Positions 2,957 to 42,614 of a stretch of 42,614 nt of DNA are shown here, piece by piece. Both the position numbers and the translations under genes were made by a program. The DNA comes from a virus. The first letter of the stretch is position 1; every line of letters starts with the position of its first letter. The stretch lies in IMG/VR virus record IMGVR_UViG_3300044712_000392, positions 1 to 42,614 of that record; one strand, 5' to 3'. The notes beneath the pieces were generated by a model, which saw only the letters and a list, made by a program, of their open reading frames with translations, had not been told where the DNA came from and ran no database searches.

Positions 2957-3571
2957 CTATCTCCAATCAGTAGCAAATTTGTTACTCTTCCCTAAGTTGC
3001 AATCTTCACAAAGCACTTGCAAGTTGTTAATATCAAGAGCCAAGTCTGGACGTATCGAACGCGGATGGATATGGTCAACGTGCAATATCACTCCATGAGC
3101 CTTCCTCGACCTTCCGCAGCACTGGCATGTAGCACCGTGCAATTCAAGAACTCTATATCTCACTGCTCGCCAACTATCAGATGCGAAAAATTCAGCACTC
3201 GGTATTTTGTTGGCGCTTTTGGATATGCGAATTTTGGGAGTAGATATAACTTTAATCGGTTTCTCTTTTACTTGCTCTTCGGTCTTACATCGTCCTCGCT
3301 TCCATTCGTTCCATACTGCATGTGAATATGGAATTTGAAGATAGTCTAATATTTCTGTCATGTCGGTTCTGTCGGGAAGTAGCGATTCTTTTATAAGAAT
3401 ATCGTGTATCACTGTGTGGCTAGGGAACTGCTTCCCTGCATCCGGGAACCATCCAGCATCCTTCAGGTAGTAGTAAGCACACATATAAAGCATAGTGTTC
3501 GTGCCGGTGCTGTATACCTTACCTAACCTGTGGCCTTTCAATGACCTTTTTCTTTTATATTCCTTTTTCAA
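2957..3571 (-). CDS. HNH endonuclease domain protein (204 aa)
   Basis: The C-terminal half has a complete HNH module: FFASDSWRAVRYRVLELHGA, then CQCCG (zinc pair), VDHIHPRS (catalytic His), and LQVLCEDCNLGKSNK (second zinc pair and final N). The N-terminal ~115 residues contain a helical region (CAYYYLKDAGWFPDAG) of unknown role. The start is TTG at 3569-3571, directly after an in-frame stop, with only a weak upstream AGAG; an internal TTG (at GHRLGK) is the alternative. It ends at 2957 with no gap to the convergent secreted protein. It could be a homing-type or nicking nuclease, or a recombination enzyme. Confidence 0.75.
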   Translation of the reverse strand: MKKEYKRKRSLKGHRLGKVYSTGTNTMLYMCAYYYLKDAGWFPDAGKQFPSHTVIHDILIKESLLPDRTDMTEILDYLQIPYSHAVWNEWKRGRCKTEEQVKEKPIKVISTPKIRISKSANKIPSAEFFASDSWRAVRYRVLELHGATCQCCGRSRKAHGVILHVDHIHPRSIRPDLALDINNLQVLCEDCNLGKSNKFATDWR

Positions 3572-34479: not shown

Positions 34480-35619
34480 TTAATTGTTTTCATGTATCCA
34501 GTCGCCTTCAGGCATGAACTTGCATCCCTGCACAAGTTTGAACGTCCTAGCAAGATTATTGGGGTTCACTCCTGCGTGTCGCCAGTTCTTACCCTTCTCG
34601 ATTTTAATTTTACCGTTTTCCATGCTGAGATACAGACGAGGTTTTTCAAGCGTAATGTCTCCACCTTTGCCGGTCCTGGCCCCGTGCTTTTTCTGAATCG
34701 CAATTATGGCAATGCCTGTTGTCAGCTTCTCGTAGATCTCTTTGAACATGGCCCCGACTTTCCAGAAATCCTCATGAAGCTCCAAAAAGTCGATGATGTT
34801 GATTTTGTCTGGTACTATCACATCTGCGAAGTTGGAACTTCGGTTGTATGCTGAAAATCGCCACTTATCGAGAGGAATGTCGAATTTTGATAAGCGATCA
34901 TGCATTTCACATTCTGACATTTCACTACTAAAGTAGTTTATATAATACTTATACATATTAGATCTTAGTATATTAAGCAGAAAAGCAGTCTTTCCGCTAT
35001 TTGGCGAACCTGCTATAACTACTAGGTTTTTCGGCATTATTTTGACGTATTCGCCTATTCCTAATGGCAAGTCTATCGGGAACTCGTCACCCGAGGCATT
35101 TCGCCAGTCCAACACCTCAAGATCTTGATCAACAATCCTATACATCCCCGCCCTACTTCCTTGTTTATTCAGCACTTTTTCTTGCGTAAGCCGGTGCAGA
35201 ATTTGCCGTATTGCTGCCTTATCTTGCTTTGTCACAACTTGTAACGCGGTGTAACAATCTGTCACAGATATGTCACCACTTGTCACAGAGATGATATTTA
35301 AGATCTCATCCCGGAGGTTACGCTTTTTGGTATCATCATCATCACCTCTGGCTAGTTCTGCGGCTAAAAGGCTAATGATTTTAGTCTTTAAATGGTTCGG
35401 GGCTCCACCCTTTGAAAGATATTCCCCCACTTCCGTCAAGCTGATAAATCCGGAGCCTTGTGACACGCTGTGACGAGGTTGTGACAAGTTGTTACACGGT
35501 GTGACAGTTGTGACGCTTGTGACAGGTTGTGACAATGGTGACGTTTGTGACAAAACTAGTGGGTCATCAGCCCACGGGCCAGGATCGTCGTCCTGCCAAA
35601 ATTGGGAGGCGTCATGCAT
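34480..35619 (-). CDS. phage replication protein with RecA/DnaB-type ATPase domain (379 aa)
   Basis: A low-complexity N-terminus (residues ~20-58, rich in Val-Thr, Ser-Gln and Pro) is followed by a winged-helix-like region (~85-165, including DCYTALQVVTKQDKAAIRQI), then an ATPase core with Walker A AGSPNSGKT (203-211), Walker B INIIDFLE (273-280) and IAIIAIQKKH (303-312). Such proteins (RepA/DnaB/RecA-like) load or act as the helicase. The DNA coding for the N-terminus and the winged-helix segment carries two clusters of TTGTGACA repeats, a likely origin. A stem-loop leader and promoter lie upstream. Confidence 0.8.
   Translation of the reverse strand: MHDASQFWQDDDPGPWADDPLVLSQTSPLSQPVTSVTTVTPCNNLSQPRHSVSQGSGFISLTEVGEYLSKGGAPNHLKTKIISLLAAELARGDDDDTKKRNLRDEILNIISVTSGDISVTDCYTALQVVTKQDKAAIRQILHRLTQEKVLNKQGSRAGMYRIVDQDLEVLDWRNASGDEFPIDLPLGIGEYVKIMPKNLVVIAGSPNSGKTAFLLNILRSNMYKYYINYFSSEMSECEMHDRLSKFDIPLDKWRFSAYNRSSNFADVIVPDKINIIDFLELHEDFWKVGAMFKEIYEKLTTGIAIIAIQKKHGARTGKGGDITLEKPRLYLSMENGKIKIEKGKNWRHAGVNPNNLARTFKLVQGCKFMPEGDWIHENN
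34917..34990. other. AT-rich segment inside the replication gene (candidate unwinding element)
   Basis: This stretch (start ACATTTCACTACTAAAGTAG) is much richer in A and T than the rest of the gene. It lies about 240 bp from the nearer iteron cluster, where a DNA-unwinding element would be expected. Confidence 0.4.
35229..35288. repeat. iteron cluster B (TGTCACA / TGTAACA), six copies
   Basis: Plus strand: TTTGTCACAA, TTGTAAC, TGTAACAA, TGTCACAG, TGTCACCA and TTGTCACAG occur within 60 bp. They are the inverse of the cluster A motif and encode residues 111-131 of the replication protein. Confidence 0.75.
35458..35553. repeat. iteron cluster A (TTGTGAC), about ten copies
   Basis: Ten copies or near-copies of TTGTGAC(A) in 96 bp on the plus strand, spaced about every 8-12 bases, encoding residues 23-54. 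The repetition also shows as VTSVTTVT in the protein. Confidence 0.8.
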
Positions 35620-36405: not shown

Positions 36406-36638
36406 AATTCCCCCTGTTCCCACTTCAGCTTTTCAGCCTTCGCCACCCTTGCCGCCTTCTTCTTGTCCTTCAATTCCCGTTTCCACACGTCTTCCCGTAC
36501 CAGATAATCAGTGTCAGGGCAGAGGACATAGTTGGTGCCTTTGATGACACATGCGCCGTAATACCGAGAAATGCTGAGTTGCGAATTGCGCCAGTAGTCC
36601 GGGCCGATGCGCTCGATTTTACTGGTGTCTAGACTCAT
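36402..36638 (-). CDS. small basic protein (78 aa)
   Basis: Begins MSLDTSKIERIGPDYWRNSQ, with a Lys-rich C-terminal helix (VWKRELKDKKKAARVAKAEK). GGGGG precedes the ATG. Overlaps neighbours at both ends. DNA or RNA binding is possible from charge only. Confidence 0.6.
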   Translation of the reverse strand: MSLDTSKIERIGPDYWRNSQLSISRYYGACVIKGTNYVLCPDTDYLVREDVWKRELKDKKKAARVAKAEKLKWEQGEL

Positions 36639-36937
36639 AATTCCCCCGTATCATGCACATGCTTGTGGCAATCCACACATAACGTCACCAGTTTATCCGG
36701 CGATACGAGCAGATGCCGATAGACGTAGTCAATAATCTTGTTCCATTCTACACCGTCGAGGTGGTGGATCTCCGTCTTGACCTCTCTACCCTTTGCCGCT
36801 GATTTCCTCTTGCCGCAAACTTGGCAAGTTTTGTTGTCTCTTTTCTCTGCTGCCGCACGTTCACGGCTTCTCAACCAGCATTGTCGCAGGGCAGACCGGA
36901 CTCGGGATCGAGGTGTAGTGGGGAGCTTTCTACTCAT
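36635..36937 (-). CDS. HNH-type protein, early operon (100 aa)
   Basis: The ATG at 36935-36937 (MSRKLPTTPRSRVRSALRQC) leads a basic N-terminus, followed by CQVCGKRKSAAKGREVKTEI, HHLDGVEWN (catalytic His) and LVTLCVDCHKHVHDTG. It is a compact HNH nuclease. Its start overlaps the end of the upstream gene. It differs from the larger HNH at 2957. Confidence 0.75.
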   Translation of the reverse strand: MSRKLPTTPRSRVRSALRQCWLRSRERAAAEKRDNKTCQVCGKRKSAAKGREVKTEIHHLDGVEWNKIIDYVYRHLLVSPDKLVTLCVDCHKHVHDTGEL

Positions 36938-37328
36938 TAGCCACCCCGTACTTTGCGCGGATCTTCTCGACCGCACAGAACATGGTACTCTTGTCGTAGC
37001 ACTCAGAAGGATTGTAATTGTCGCAACAATTTGTAGCTGCACAACACCGTTCCTCTACCTGTTCCATGATTTCACAGCACTCCCGCGCCACCCTCTTTCT
37101 CTCCATCGCAACAAGGTATTCCTGATCTGCGAGGTGGGTAGCGGCTAGGGCTGTCAACCGTTCGCACTCCTCGGCAAGCGTCTGCTTCGTTTTTTGGGCG
37201 CGTTGCAAGAGGATGGTGAGGCGATCGATTTCCCTTATAAGGAAAGAGATCCTACCCGCGACCTGTGGATTGAAACTGCCATTTACATTCGGGTGCGCCC
37301 ACCACGTTCTAATTTCCTCGATATTCAT
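36930..37328 (-). CDS. cysteine-rich coiled-coil protein (132 aa)
   Basis: ATG at 37326-37328 (MNIEEIRTWWAHPNVNGSFN) after GGAGGG. A helical middle (LAEECERLTALAATHLADQE) and a C-terminal cluster of cysteines (VEERCCAATNCCDNYNPSEC). Function unknown. Confidence 0.6.
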   Translation of the reverse strand: MNIEEIRTWWAHPNVNGSFNPQVAGRISFLIREIDRLTILLQRAQKTKQTLAEECERLTALAATHLADQEYLVAMERKRVARECCEIMEQVEERCCAATNCCDNYNPSECYDKSTMFCAVEKIRAKYGVANE

Positions 37329-38055: not shown

Positions 38056-38381
38056 TTTTCCTCCAAATCCCCCTGAAACTTCAGCATCACTTCGTTCCAG
38101 CAATCGCACCAATGCTGTAGCAGCTCCACGTCAACCGGCTTCCCATTCCCCCGCGCCAGATCCAGAAGGGCATCCGTAACAGCTTTGATTTTCCGGTGAT
38201 TCCTCTTGTGCTGCGGAATGAATTGCTCAAGCTGCGTTAGCACTATTGTCCCGACCGACACGCCGAGAGTGATTAAACCTTCATCCGTGAAATCCTCCAC
38301 TTTCGGGAGTTTCGGTGCCGGCGGGACGTAGGGGAGGTAGCGAACGCGGTTGCCTTGTTGCGTCTTCTGGTAGAGTTCCAT
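38052..38381 (-). CDS. hypothetical early protein (109 aa)
   Basis: Begins MELYQKTQQGNRVRYLPYVP, then KAVTDALLDLARGNGKPVDV and a Cys/Trp-containing end. It begins within a few bases of the ATPase stop. It follows the recombination pair, so it may be an accessory protein. No family. Confidence 0.6.
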   Translation of the reverse strand: MELYQKTQQGNRVRYLPYVPPAPKLPKVEDFTDEGLITLGVSVGTIVLTQLEQFIPQHKRNHRKIKAVTDALLDLARGNGKPVDVELLQHWCDCWNEVMLKFQGDLEEK

Positions 38382-39385
38382 CATGCCTCCTTCGGTAGTT
38401 TGCGGAGTTTACTCAATGCCGAGCCAACCCACTTCTGGAATTTCTCGTTACTGTTCGGCTTCCGCAGATCGTCAGGAGACAGGAAGCCCTCCTTCCCCGC
38501 AGCCGTCTGGTAGAAACTGCACTCACGCAGCACATCAGCCGGAAATAGCCCTGTGGATAGACAGTAATCGTCTAGCTCGGTGAGGAGGTGCTGTTGAGCT
38601 TCGGAGATGATAGCGGGGGCTTCCTGTTCTTTTTTCTTCTCCGGTTTCTTCTCTCCACCAGCCGCCCACTCAGCCACCAGCCACCCGGATTCCTCACTGA
38701 TAGGCTTATCGAGCGGGAACATTGCTTTATGCTGCTCTTGTAGTTTCAGCGGTTGAGGGTATCCGGCCTTATCGGGAGTCAGTAGAATAGAAACAGTCAA
38801 CTCATACGGTAATTCCTTGGAGCAGATAGGTTGCCACCCGATAGGCACAATCACCGTTTTGTTGTTTTGGTCCTTCTCCATCTTCACTTTCTCCTCTGCA
38901 CGGAAGCACAGAATTAGAGTAGCGTTGACCTGAAGGAGCCGTTGAACCATTTGCTTGTGTCCCATCTTCGGTTTGATCCAAGCCGCCATTTTACAGGCTT
39001 CCCGCTTCTTCCAATCGTCACCTGCCATGCGGGTCAATTCTTCTTCCTGCCAATCGAGTATCCCGCCCTCTCCCGCCCATTCGTGAGAGCATGAATCAAC
39101 AACGATTGCCTTATATCCTGCCGCGTCTGCCGCCTTAATAGCCTCAACGTAAGATGCAGGGCGAAACGGGGCGTGAAGTTCACACATATCGAATTGGAAC
39201 TTGTCGGCATAGTGAAGGGATCGCCGCGCCTCCGTGTCGATAACTGCGAACCTGTTTCCTGGTCCGACTATGCCTGATGCCAACCGCATTGCTGAAAAGG
39301 TCTTGCCAGAGCCAGAACAACCCATCAGCCCTATCAGTAGCCCTACTTGTTCTCTTGTTGCCGGTCTAAACGTGTATCCGCTCAT
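38381..39385 (-). CDS. RecA-fold / AAA ATPase (Sak4-like recombination ATPase), 334 aa
   Basis: Walker A is LMGCSGSGKTFSAM (~residues 20-33). IDTEARRS (~49-56) and AIVVDSCSHEW (~94-104) give Walker B and sensor-type elements. The C-terminus is helical with SSSAP-like linkers (EKKPEKKKEQEAPAIISEAQ). A RecA-type ATPase beside a RecE-like nuclease is a common phage recombination pair. A single-stranded annealing or loading role is inferred. Its start overlaps the nuclease stop. Confidence 0.75.
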   Translation of the reverse strand: MSGYTFRPATREQVGLLIGLMGCSGSGKTFSAMRLASGIVGPGNRFAVIDTEARRSLHYADKFQFDMCELHAPFRPASYVEAIKAADAAGYKAIVVDSCSHEWAGEGGILDWQEEELTRMAGDDWKKREACKMAAWIKPKMGHKQMVQRLLQVNATLILCFRAEEKVKMEKDQNNKTVIVPIGWQPICSKELPYELTVSILLTPDKAGYPQPLKLQEQHKAMFPLDKPISEESGWLVAEWAAGGEKKPEKKKEQEAPAIISEAQQHLLTELDDYCLSTGLFPADVLRECSFYQTAAGKEGFLSPDDLRKPNSNEKFQKWVGSALSKLRKLPKEA

Positions 39386-40251
39386 TCATCCGCTCCTATT
39401 GTCTGCGCTTTACTCTCCCATTGGGCCAACGCCCATGCCGGATTATCGAGGTAGCATATCCTGTTTGGGTATCCAGGCCACTCCCCGGTGAACATGCACT
39501 TTTCCCAAACGTGTATCCCGTAATCCACCTTCTCCTTTGCCATTGCCTGGAAATCAGGGGGCAATCCGATGAACGAGCAGAGATACGGTGCCGATGTTTC
39601 CTGGACCACAAAGACGAATTTTGGTGAAACGTCCTCAACCGCCTTCACTCCGCGCCGGTAAAACGCATACTGAATGTCGTAGCCAAGAGAAACCATCTTC
39701 CGTGCGAAATTTGTAGGATCGGCACTTTCCCCGGTCGTTTTGTAATCCAGGATTAGTTTCCGATTCTTGCTGATCCAATCTGGGCGCACTCTGAACCATG
39801 TTTCTCCCTCTTGCCAGATGTAAGAGAGTTCTGAATCGCCCTGCCTTCGGAGATCCTTGATATTGAGATCTGGGCAGCTTGCAATCTGTCGTTCAGCCGC
39901 AATCACCATGTCTTTGACTGAATCATACTGATGGATAAGCAGGGGTATTTTCCCGGCATCTCGCGCTATGTCCCGTTCCTCCTTCGCTTCCTTTTTGCGC
40001 CAGTCGGGTGCATCAACCACATGAGCTTGGTCGAGTCCTTCCAGCAACAGAGCATGAGCCATTTTCCCAACGTCAAACTTCGCTTCACCTTCATCCGGTT
40101 CATAGATTGGATTCAGTCTCGGATGACCGTACCAAGCATGAGCGGGGCTTTGATAAAGCAAGGTATGTAACGTACCCCTTGACAGTGACGGCACTACGCA
40201 CGGATCGGCGTGATATTCCTCATTCGTTAAAACGTGTACTCCTTGTTTCAA
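39382..40251 (-). CDS. PD-(D/E)XK exonuclease, RecE/DUF3799-like (289 aa)
   Basis: The active site appears as RVRPDWISKN (Asp) and LILDYKTTGESADP (D-x-K), with the fold start MKQGVHVLTNEEYHADPCVV, then LSRGTLHTLL and GKMAHALLLEG. It belongs to the exonuclease VIII-type family (PF12684 by recollection). It degrades dsDNA ends to produce 3' single strands for annealing. Its partner is the downstream ATPase. Confidence 0.85.
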   Translation of the reverse strand: MKQGVHVLTNEEYHADPCVVPSLSRGTLHTLLYQSPAHAWYGHPRLNPIYEPDEGEAKFDVGKMAHALLLEGLDQAHVVDAPDWRKKEAKEERDIARDAGKIPLLIHQYDSVKDMVIAAERQIASCPDLNIKDLRRQGDSELSYIWQEGETWFRVRPDWISKNRKLILDYKTTGESADPTNFARKMVSLGYDIQYAFYRRGVKAVEDVSPKFVFVVQETSAPYLCSFIGLPPDFQAMAKEKVDYGIHVWEKCMFTGEWPGYPNRICYLDNPAWALAQWESKAQTIGADE

Positions 40252-42237: not shown

Positions 42238-42614
42238 TCACACCTCTACAGGTTTGTTTTTCTCGTCGAGTCGGTATGCGGTGTTAGGCTTGATTCCTTT
42301 TTCACCGACGTATGCCAAAGTGAAGCGGTAACGTTCTTTTTTGTTGTCCCAAAATTTGAAAATCATCACACCTCCGTATCCTGCCGTGGCGGTGCCTCCG
42401 TATCCTGCCGTGGCGGTGCCTCCGTATCCTGCCGTGGCGGTGCCTCTGACTCCTGCCGTGGCGGTGCCTCCGTATCCTGCCGTGGCGGTGCCTCCGTATC
42501 CTGCCGTGGCGGTGCCTCCGTATCCTGCCGTGGCGGTGCCTCCGTATCCTGCCGTGGCGGTGCCTCTGACTCCTGCCGTGGCGGTGCCTCCGTATCCTGC
42601 CGTGGCGGTGCCTC
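42238..42614 (-). CDS. DUF7666-like repeat protein, C-terminal part (joins 1..605 across the contig junction)
   Basis: The frame from the 24-bp repeats continues as GGVMIFKFWDNKKERYRFTL, then AYVGEKGIKPNTAYRLDEKN and stops at 42238. The domain YVGEKGIKPNTAYRLDEKNK-PVEV is what I recall at the end of GTATAG-repeat proteins. The last repeat unit provides GGAGGT three codons before the internal ATG at 42364-42366, so the C-terminal 42 residues could also be made alone. Of this segment 42488-42614 duplicates 1-127 and should be counted once. Confidence 0.8.
   Translation of the reverse strand, partial: GTATAGYGGTATAGVRGTATAGYGGTATAGYGGTATAGYGGTATAGYGGTATAGVRGTATAGYGGTATAGYGGTATAGYGGVMIFKFWDNKKERYRFTLAYVGEKGIKPNTAYRLDEKNKPVEV
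42368..42614 (-). repeat. 24-bp tandem repeat array, right part
   Basis: Ten units plus seven bases, reading Y Y Y V Y Y Y Y V Y on the plus strand. Units at 42488-42607 and the 7-base tail duplicate 1-127, so five units here are unique (42368-42487). With the left part this makes 16 units. Confidence 0.97.
42488..42614. repeat. 127-bp terminal direct repeat, right copy (identical to 1..127)
   Basis: Exact match to 1-127 beginning at a repeat-unit boundary. Removing it gives a 42,487-bp circle. Confidence 0.85.

Follow-up and report, generated by a model that had tools for sequence, protein, structure and literature searches.

Background

Replication origins that lie within the gene of a replication protein are already known from several phages. 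Lambdoid phages are a documented case, with origin repeats inside their initiator gene (PMC7466680), and in SPP1 the gp38-oriL repeats are found within the gene of the origin binder (PMC6316719). TP901-1 ORF13 and Tuc2009 Rep2009 bind direct repeats in their own genes, and these repeats constitute the ori (PMC8965321). SaPI Rep and SCC Cch2 are helicases that load themselves and recognise short repeats; their origins are located downstream of the gene (PMC7581432).

Our analysis concerns an array-bearing gene in a viral genome, IMGVR_UViG_3300044712_000392, analysed over positions 1-42,614 (hereafter the window). An initial annotation had placed an origin in this gene and compared it to lambda. 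The carrier indeed differs from lambda O, but in-gene origins are not confined to lambda, as SPP1, TP901-1 and Tuc2009 demonstrate. In the literature searched, which does not prove absence, we found no account of phased in-gene arrays in this family of DnaB-like ATPase/Prim-Pol proteins; the paper on MetMV, a virus that encodes a relative, does not mention replication.

The gene and its encoded protein

The gene at 34480..35619 (minus strand; ORF and translation) encodes P0001, a replication protein of 379 aa, which consists of a disordered N-terminus, helices at residues 61-91, a winged helix at residues 102-162 and a DnaB/RecA-like ATPase. The ATPase domain comprises residues 185-376 (34492..35067, minus strand), with Walker A near 34987-35013. 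Its match to DnaB_C (E=1.6e-7, 31.4 bits against a Pfam cut-off of 27), the presence of Walker A and the fold, the PHROG assignment as DnaB-like helicase and the Foldseek matches to RadA/KaiC/DnaB agree with the RecA/DnaB-type ATPase named in the initial annotation. About 50 residues of DnaB_C are matched, so a full-length DnaB architecture is not present; the ATPase is small and its helicase role is predicted. No homology to lambda O or Phage_rep_org_N was detected in P0001, as the Pfam and PHROG matches above cut-off are solely DnaB_C and DnaB-like.

In the AF2 model (pLDDT 83, pTM 0.64), residues 1-57 are disordered, and the winged helix (35134..35316, minus strand) occupies the place of the DnaB N-domain. 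Its secondary structure elements are H102-112, E116-118, H119-126, H131-146, E150-152 and E159-162. Residues 131-146 form the recognition helix (35182..35229, minus strand), which includes the codon of Arg138 at 35206-35208. P0001 is without a Prim-Pol part, and no other primase-like ORF was found among the early-region ORFs scanned, which were part of the ORFs.

Several neighbouring features of the window were noted during the analysis. Two genes are HNH endonuclease-like (36635-37042 and 2957-3571), the first of them a weak match (0.0021) near the replication gene. At 38381-40251, an Exonuclease VIII-like gene adjoins the gene of an AAA_24 protein, a likely recombination pair. A 24-bp tandem repeat is present at both ends (1-272 and 42371-42614), with an exact terminal overlap of 127 bp; the map is therefore probably circular, with the break within a repeat.

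Two phased arrays within the gene

Array 1 (35458..35553, plus strand) contains ten GT[G/T]AC cores every 9-11 bp, namely nine GTGAC and one GTTAC at spacings of 10, 11, 10, 10, 9, 9, 10, 9 and 9, and codes for the disordered residues 23-54. Array 2 (35229..35288, minus strand) contains six opposed cores every 10-11 bp, four GTCAC and two GTAAC at spacings of 10, 10, 10, 11 and 10. It codes for residues 111-131, i.e. the end of helix 1, the strand, helix 2 and the turn of the winged helix. Between them, a spacer (35289..35457) codes for helices 61-91 and a linker, and these helices sit where Prim-Pol-fused relatives have PriCT-1. These counts, 10 TGTGAC cores at 35458-35553 and 6 opposed ones at 35229-35288, agree with the about ten TTGTGAC(A) copies and six inverted copies reported initially, and the repetitive Val-Thr/Ser-Gln segment noted in the protein is likewise present in P0001. 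The motif nearly matches the palindrome TGT-S-ACA, so the description as opposed hangs on the central base.

Single near-copies of TTGTGACA occur 39 times in the whole window against 34.5 expected, which is the level of chance. The phased pair TGTGACN{3,5}TGTGAC occurs five times, always in array 1, against an expectation of 0.00 (100 shuffles). It is thus the clustering, and not the motif itself, that is special.

The cores fall in all three reading frames. We compared the arrays with 20,000 synonymous recodings of the encoded amino acids with phage codon usage, none of which reached the observed score: array 1 has a motif score of 15 (null mean 2.2, maximum 9) and array 2 a score of 8 (null mean 0.8, maximum 6). 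Moreover, in the copy of array 2 where GTGAC would give an in-frame TGA, it is replaced by GTTAC. Taken together, these observations indicate that the constraint acts on the DNA, as had been supposed, and the arrays are not explicable by protein sequence or codon choice. As in the in-gene phage origins, the clustered repeats lie inside the coding sequence of the putative initiator itself.

The initially proposed AT-rich stretch, a candidate unwinding element, does exist (34917..34990, 76% AT); it is one of two such 74-bp spots in the window and the sole strong one near the arrays, about 240 bp beyond array 2. Relatives do not clearly keep such a stretch on the downstream side of array 2 (mean percentile 0.37), and it is not a general feature. 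Most Prim-Pol-fused relatives possess an AT-rich tract 40-80 bp 5' of array 1 (combined P 3e-10, ignoring kinship), which is absent in the window genome. GC skew, suggested initially as a check, has no turning point at the arrays. The missing tract and the skew both count against an origin in the window.

Arrays across relatives

A first scan of viral sequences with the single P0001 protein as query gave no match, nor did tblastn against plasmids. Scans with alignments yielded 49 viral relatives and 6 from MAGs; 32 further non-redundant relatives were added later, and the combined set comprises 73 non-redundant viral relatives. Commonly, they are fusions of Prim-Pol, PriCT-1, winged helix and DnaB-like ATPase, in which array 1 is placed between the Prim-Pol and PriCT-1 parts. 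Relatives are also encoded by MetMV and vir555, two annotated viruses with methanogens as their assigned hosts; MetMV has ACCACAA arrays and vir555 a GTTGAA array at homologous places.

In the first set, a phased repeat scoring 6 or more was found within 1100 bp before Walker A in 21/41 non-redundant relatives, compared with 4/177 background segments of the same loci. In the combined set, 44/73 relatives possess an array phased at about 10 bp at one or both of two fixed places in the same gene. Array 2 was detected in 30 of the 73, against 1/292 control windows placed inside the ATPase code of the same genes, and array 1 in 29, against 1/146. Most starts of array 2 lie at -287 to -245 relative to Walker A, with a peak at -276 to -274. 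The mode of unit spacing is 10 bp, and the units of the two arrays use the reading frames nearly equally (57/50/43 and 51/48/39). About 29/73 relatives have no array by the phased-repeat test, and some have lost or moved it. The L049 array is for the most part situated 5' of the frame that encodes the ATPase, past the stop of the upstream frame, and in L157, L165, L340 and L401 an array is found downstream of the ATPase core (three units only in L340).

The initial annotation had regarded a lack of TTGTGAC in relatives as evidence against an origin. TTGTGAC is indeed not conserved there, yet a different repeat with the same phasing occupies the same place, and conservation of this word was consequently the wrong test. 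The opposed clusters are no defining feature either, as most relatives with both arrays have the same motif direction in each.

Each genome has its own motif, among them TGTCTACA, TGTCCACA, TGTCAACA, TGTCGTCA, GACCACA, CGTTACA, CGTGACA, GCGTAACA, GGGGACA and TGACTTCA. Within a genome, the two arrays usually have their motif in common: the word of array 2 has a mean score of 4.37 in array 1 of its own genome, compared with 1.73 in those of other genomes. A change of motif is visible in the protein as concerted dipeptide switches (VT, ST, SS, TT) at three sites of one domain.

TGTGAC repeats phased at about 10 bp were also noticed in ORFs of unrelated replication proteins (Phage_rep_org_N and RepA-like AAA_25; L048, L052, L055 and L096), where they code for Val-Thr/Ser-Gln/Cys-His segments. 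Among the matches listed, those of the control pattern CAGTGT mostly have an in-frame spacing of 9 bp, while TGTGAC matches mix spacings. Phage initiators may commonly have arrays within their genes. In addition, two related phages contain a long array of TAGCGTC(T/A/G)GG units, spaced at 9-10 bp, at a great distance from the helicase gene, namely 5' of Walker A by about 4.2 kb in L124 and about 3.2 kb in L136.

Motif and recognition helix

Of 231 alignment columns outside the code of the arrays, residues 138, 142, 139 and 135 best track the motif class, and they are spaced as one face of the recognition helix. These four ranked highest in the first set and again after its enlargement to 41, where residue 138 has a z of 12.6; the chance that all four fall in the helix is P 9e-6, ignoring phylogeny. 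Arg138 accompanies 17/17 GTNAC arrays, Ser138 10/12 TCTACA and 4/4 TCGTCA arrays, and Asn138 3/3 ACCACA arrays. Because the Arg138 pattern was noticed in the first set, the held-out relatives, whose motif class was assigned automatically, provide a fair test: Arg138 is found in 7/7 of their GTNAC arrays at a base rate of 15/32 (hypergeometric P 0.002), some of these arrays being short, with three units each in L340 and L406. Two Arg138 loci do not follow the simple pattern, L399 with GCGTTGCA and L361 with TGAAAC.

As array 2 adjoins the code of the helix, linkage could add to this association. The motif has little association with wing columns or with those immediately 5' of array 2, and the rule is still valid for arrays located beyond the winged-helix code (L049, L132, L140, L156, L165, L172, L329, L340, L401, L406). 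On a tree inferred from the ATPase domain only, the motif class requires at least 21 changes and residue 138 at least 18. Near-identical ATPases (L124, L135, L126, L136; L149/L154; L152/L173) differ in motif and helix residue, and in the supported independent pairs, which are few (3, and about 5/6), both change together and never oppositely. The likely reader of the arrays is the ATPase's own winged helix, judging from this covariation.

Proposed function and alternative explanations

Our preferred explanation, to which we assign a probability of roughly three in four, is that the arrays are an origin read by the winged helix of the protein encoded across them. The two arrays would be the section of a phage replication origin that the initiator binds. 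With one contact per helical turn, all units would face one side of the DNA, and the bound copies may gather a ring of the DnaB-like ATPase. They would open a neighbouring AT-rich tract and would load the replicative helicase or serve as that helicase themselves. A Prim-Pol primase forms part of the same polypeptide in relatives. In its general form, the initial proposal of an origin-type DNA element in a replication-protein gene gains strong support from the comparison of relatives, whereas its details did not fare as well, i.e. conservation of TTGTGAC, the opposed orientation, the AT-rich stretch and a ribbon-helix-helix (RHH) reader.

The code of the DNA-binding domain contains array 2, and the site and its putative reader are therefore passed on and swapped as a unit. 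A more far-reaching hypothesis, which we rate only somewhat above even odds, is that of a self-referential specificity cassette, in which the gene's DNA is the recognition array of the domain it encodes. Site and reader would switch jointly and drag the protein sequence along, and a near one-helix code, apparently Arg138-GTNAC, Ser138-TGTCNACA and Asn138-GACCACA, would have been rewritten at least about 20 times in viruses of bacteria and archaea.

Alternatively, the arrays could be an autoregulatory operator, on which the winged helix represses its own gene by roadblock or looping, with the origin elsewhere. The same association of motif and helix is expected in this case, and initiators often autoregulate. 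However, the arrays are situated well within the gene: Prim-Pol-fused relatives have several hundred bp between gene start and arrays, and in some relatives (L340, L401, L157, L165) an array follows the ATPase core. As many as 16 phased sites next to an AT-rich tract resemble an origin. We consider an operator unlikely.

Less probable still is that the sites are read by another replication factor of phage or host, and that the helix association reflects linkage or shared ancestry. The direct contact of the helix code with array 2 and the TGTGAC arrays in unrelated replication genes would fit such a reader. It does not account for the little association of equally near columns across array 2 and in the wing, for the validity of the rule in arrays outside the winged-helix code, or for the repeated switches of motif and helix on the ATPase tree.

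RHH proteins of the ParR type recognise clustered repeats of 10-11 bp, and a small protein with an RHH-like C-terminus (P0002; 35623..35946, minus strand) is encoded next door, upstream. Centromere-like (parC-type) arrays bound by this protein, for partition or silencing, are nevertheless very improbable: the motif tracks the ATPase's own helix, and no ParM-type ATPase was found among the ORFs scanned. The protein has no family above cut-off in Pfam or PHROG. No homologue is present at the loci of array-keeping relatives and no relative of it was found near any homologue of P0001, so that an RHH binder is not conserved with the repeats, and we rejected this candidate reader, which the initial annotation had also suggested.

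Finally, a low-complexity Val-Thr/Ser-Gln repeat at the protein level without DNA function, for which the disordered segment encoded by array 1 would speak, is contradicted by the synonymous recodings, all of which score lower, and by units in all frames, a folded domain encoded by array 2 and the position of most of the L049 array, 5' of the ATPase frame and past an upstream stop, and was rejected.

If the preferred explanation is correct, origins and initiators would be predictable from sequence alone for dozens of viruses that have not been cultivated, some of them assigned to methanogens. Dual coding is strong enough here for a DNA motif to dictate the sequence of a portion of a folded domain, and the arrays account for the odd Val-Thr, Ser-Thr, Ser-Ser and Thr-Thr repeats of these proteins. 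The relatives would offer a natural series of matched pairs of reader and site, with which a winged-helix recognition code could be probed by swapping single residues.

Comparison with known systems

Lambda iterons are about 18 bp long. In lambda O, iterons in the initiator's own gene are read by that initiator and adjoin an AT-rich tract (PMC7466680). The present arrangement resembles this, with a putative reader and with an AT-rich tract next to array 1 in most Prim-Pol-fused relatives. Lambda has four longer iterons (six in Stx phages), and O is without an ATPase (PMC7466680); here, one-turn units form two arrays, one of them in the code of the DNA-binding domain, within the gene of a DnaB-like ATPase. 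The proteins of TP901-1, Tuc2009 and SPP1 have no helicase domain and act as replisome organisers or bind the origin (PMC8965321, PMC6316719), and in SPP1 loader and helicase are separate proteins (PMC6316719). SaPI Rep and Cch2 similarly combine a helicase with an attached DNA-binding domain that reads short repeats (5-nt in Cch2), but their DNA-binding domain is C-terminal, the helicases belong to other families and the origin lies downstream (PMC7581432). P0001 likewise has a winged helix, an ATPase and matching repeats, with binding and helicase activity as predictions. ORF904 of pRN1 is comparable in joining a primase-polymerase to a helicase-like motor in one protein; its required DNA is reported to lie up- and downstream of the operon, and no in-gene phased array is described there (PMC4234260). 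Compared with the known in-gene origins of lambda O, SPP1 gp38 and TP901-1 ORF13, four things are new, namely the protein family, repeat units of one turn, the location of an array within the sequence that codes for the DNA-binding domain, and an apparent code between motif and helix.
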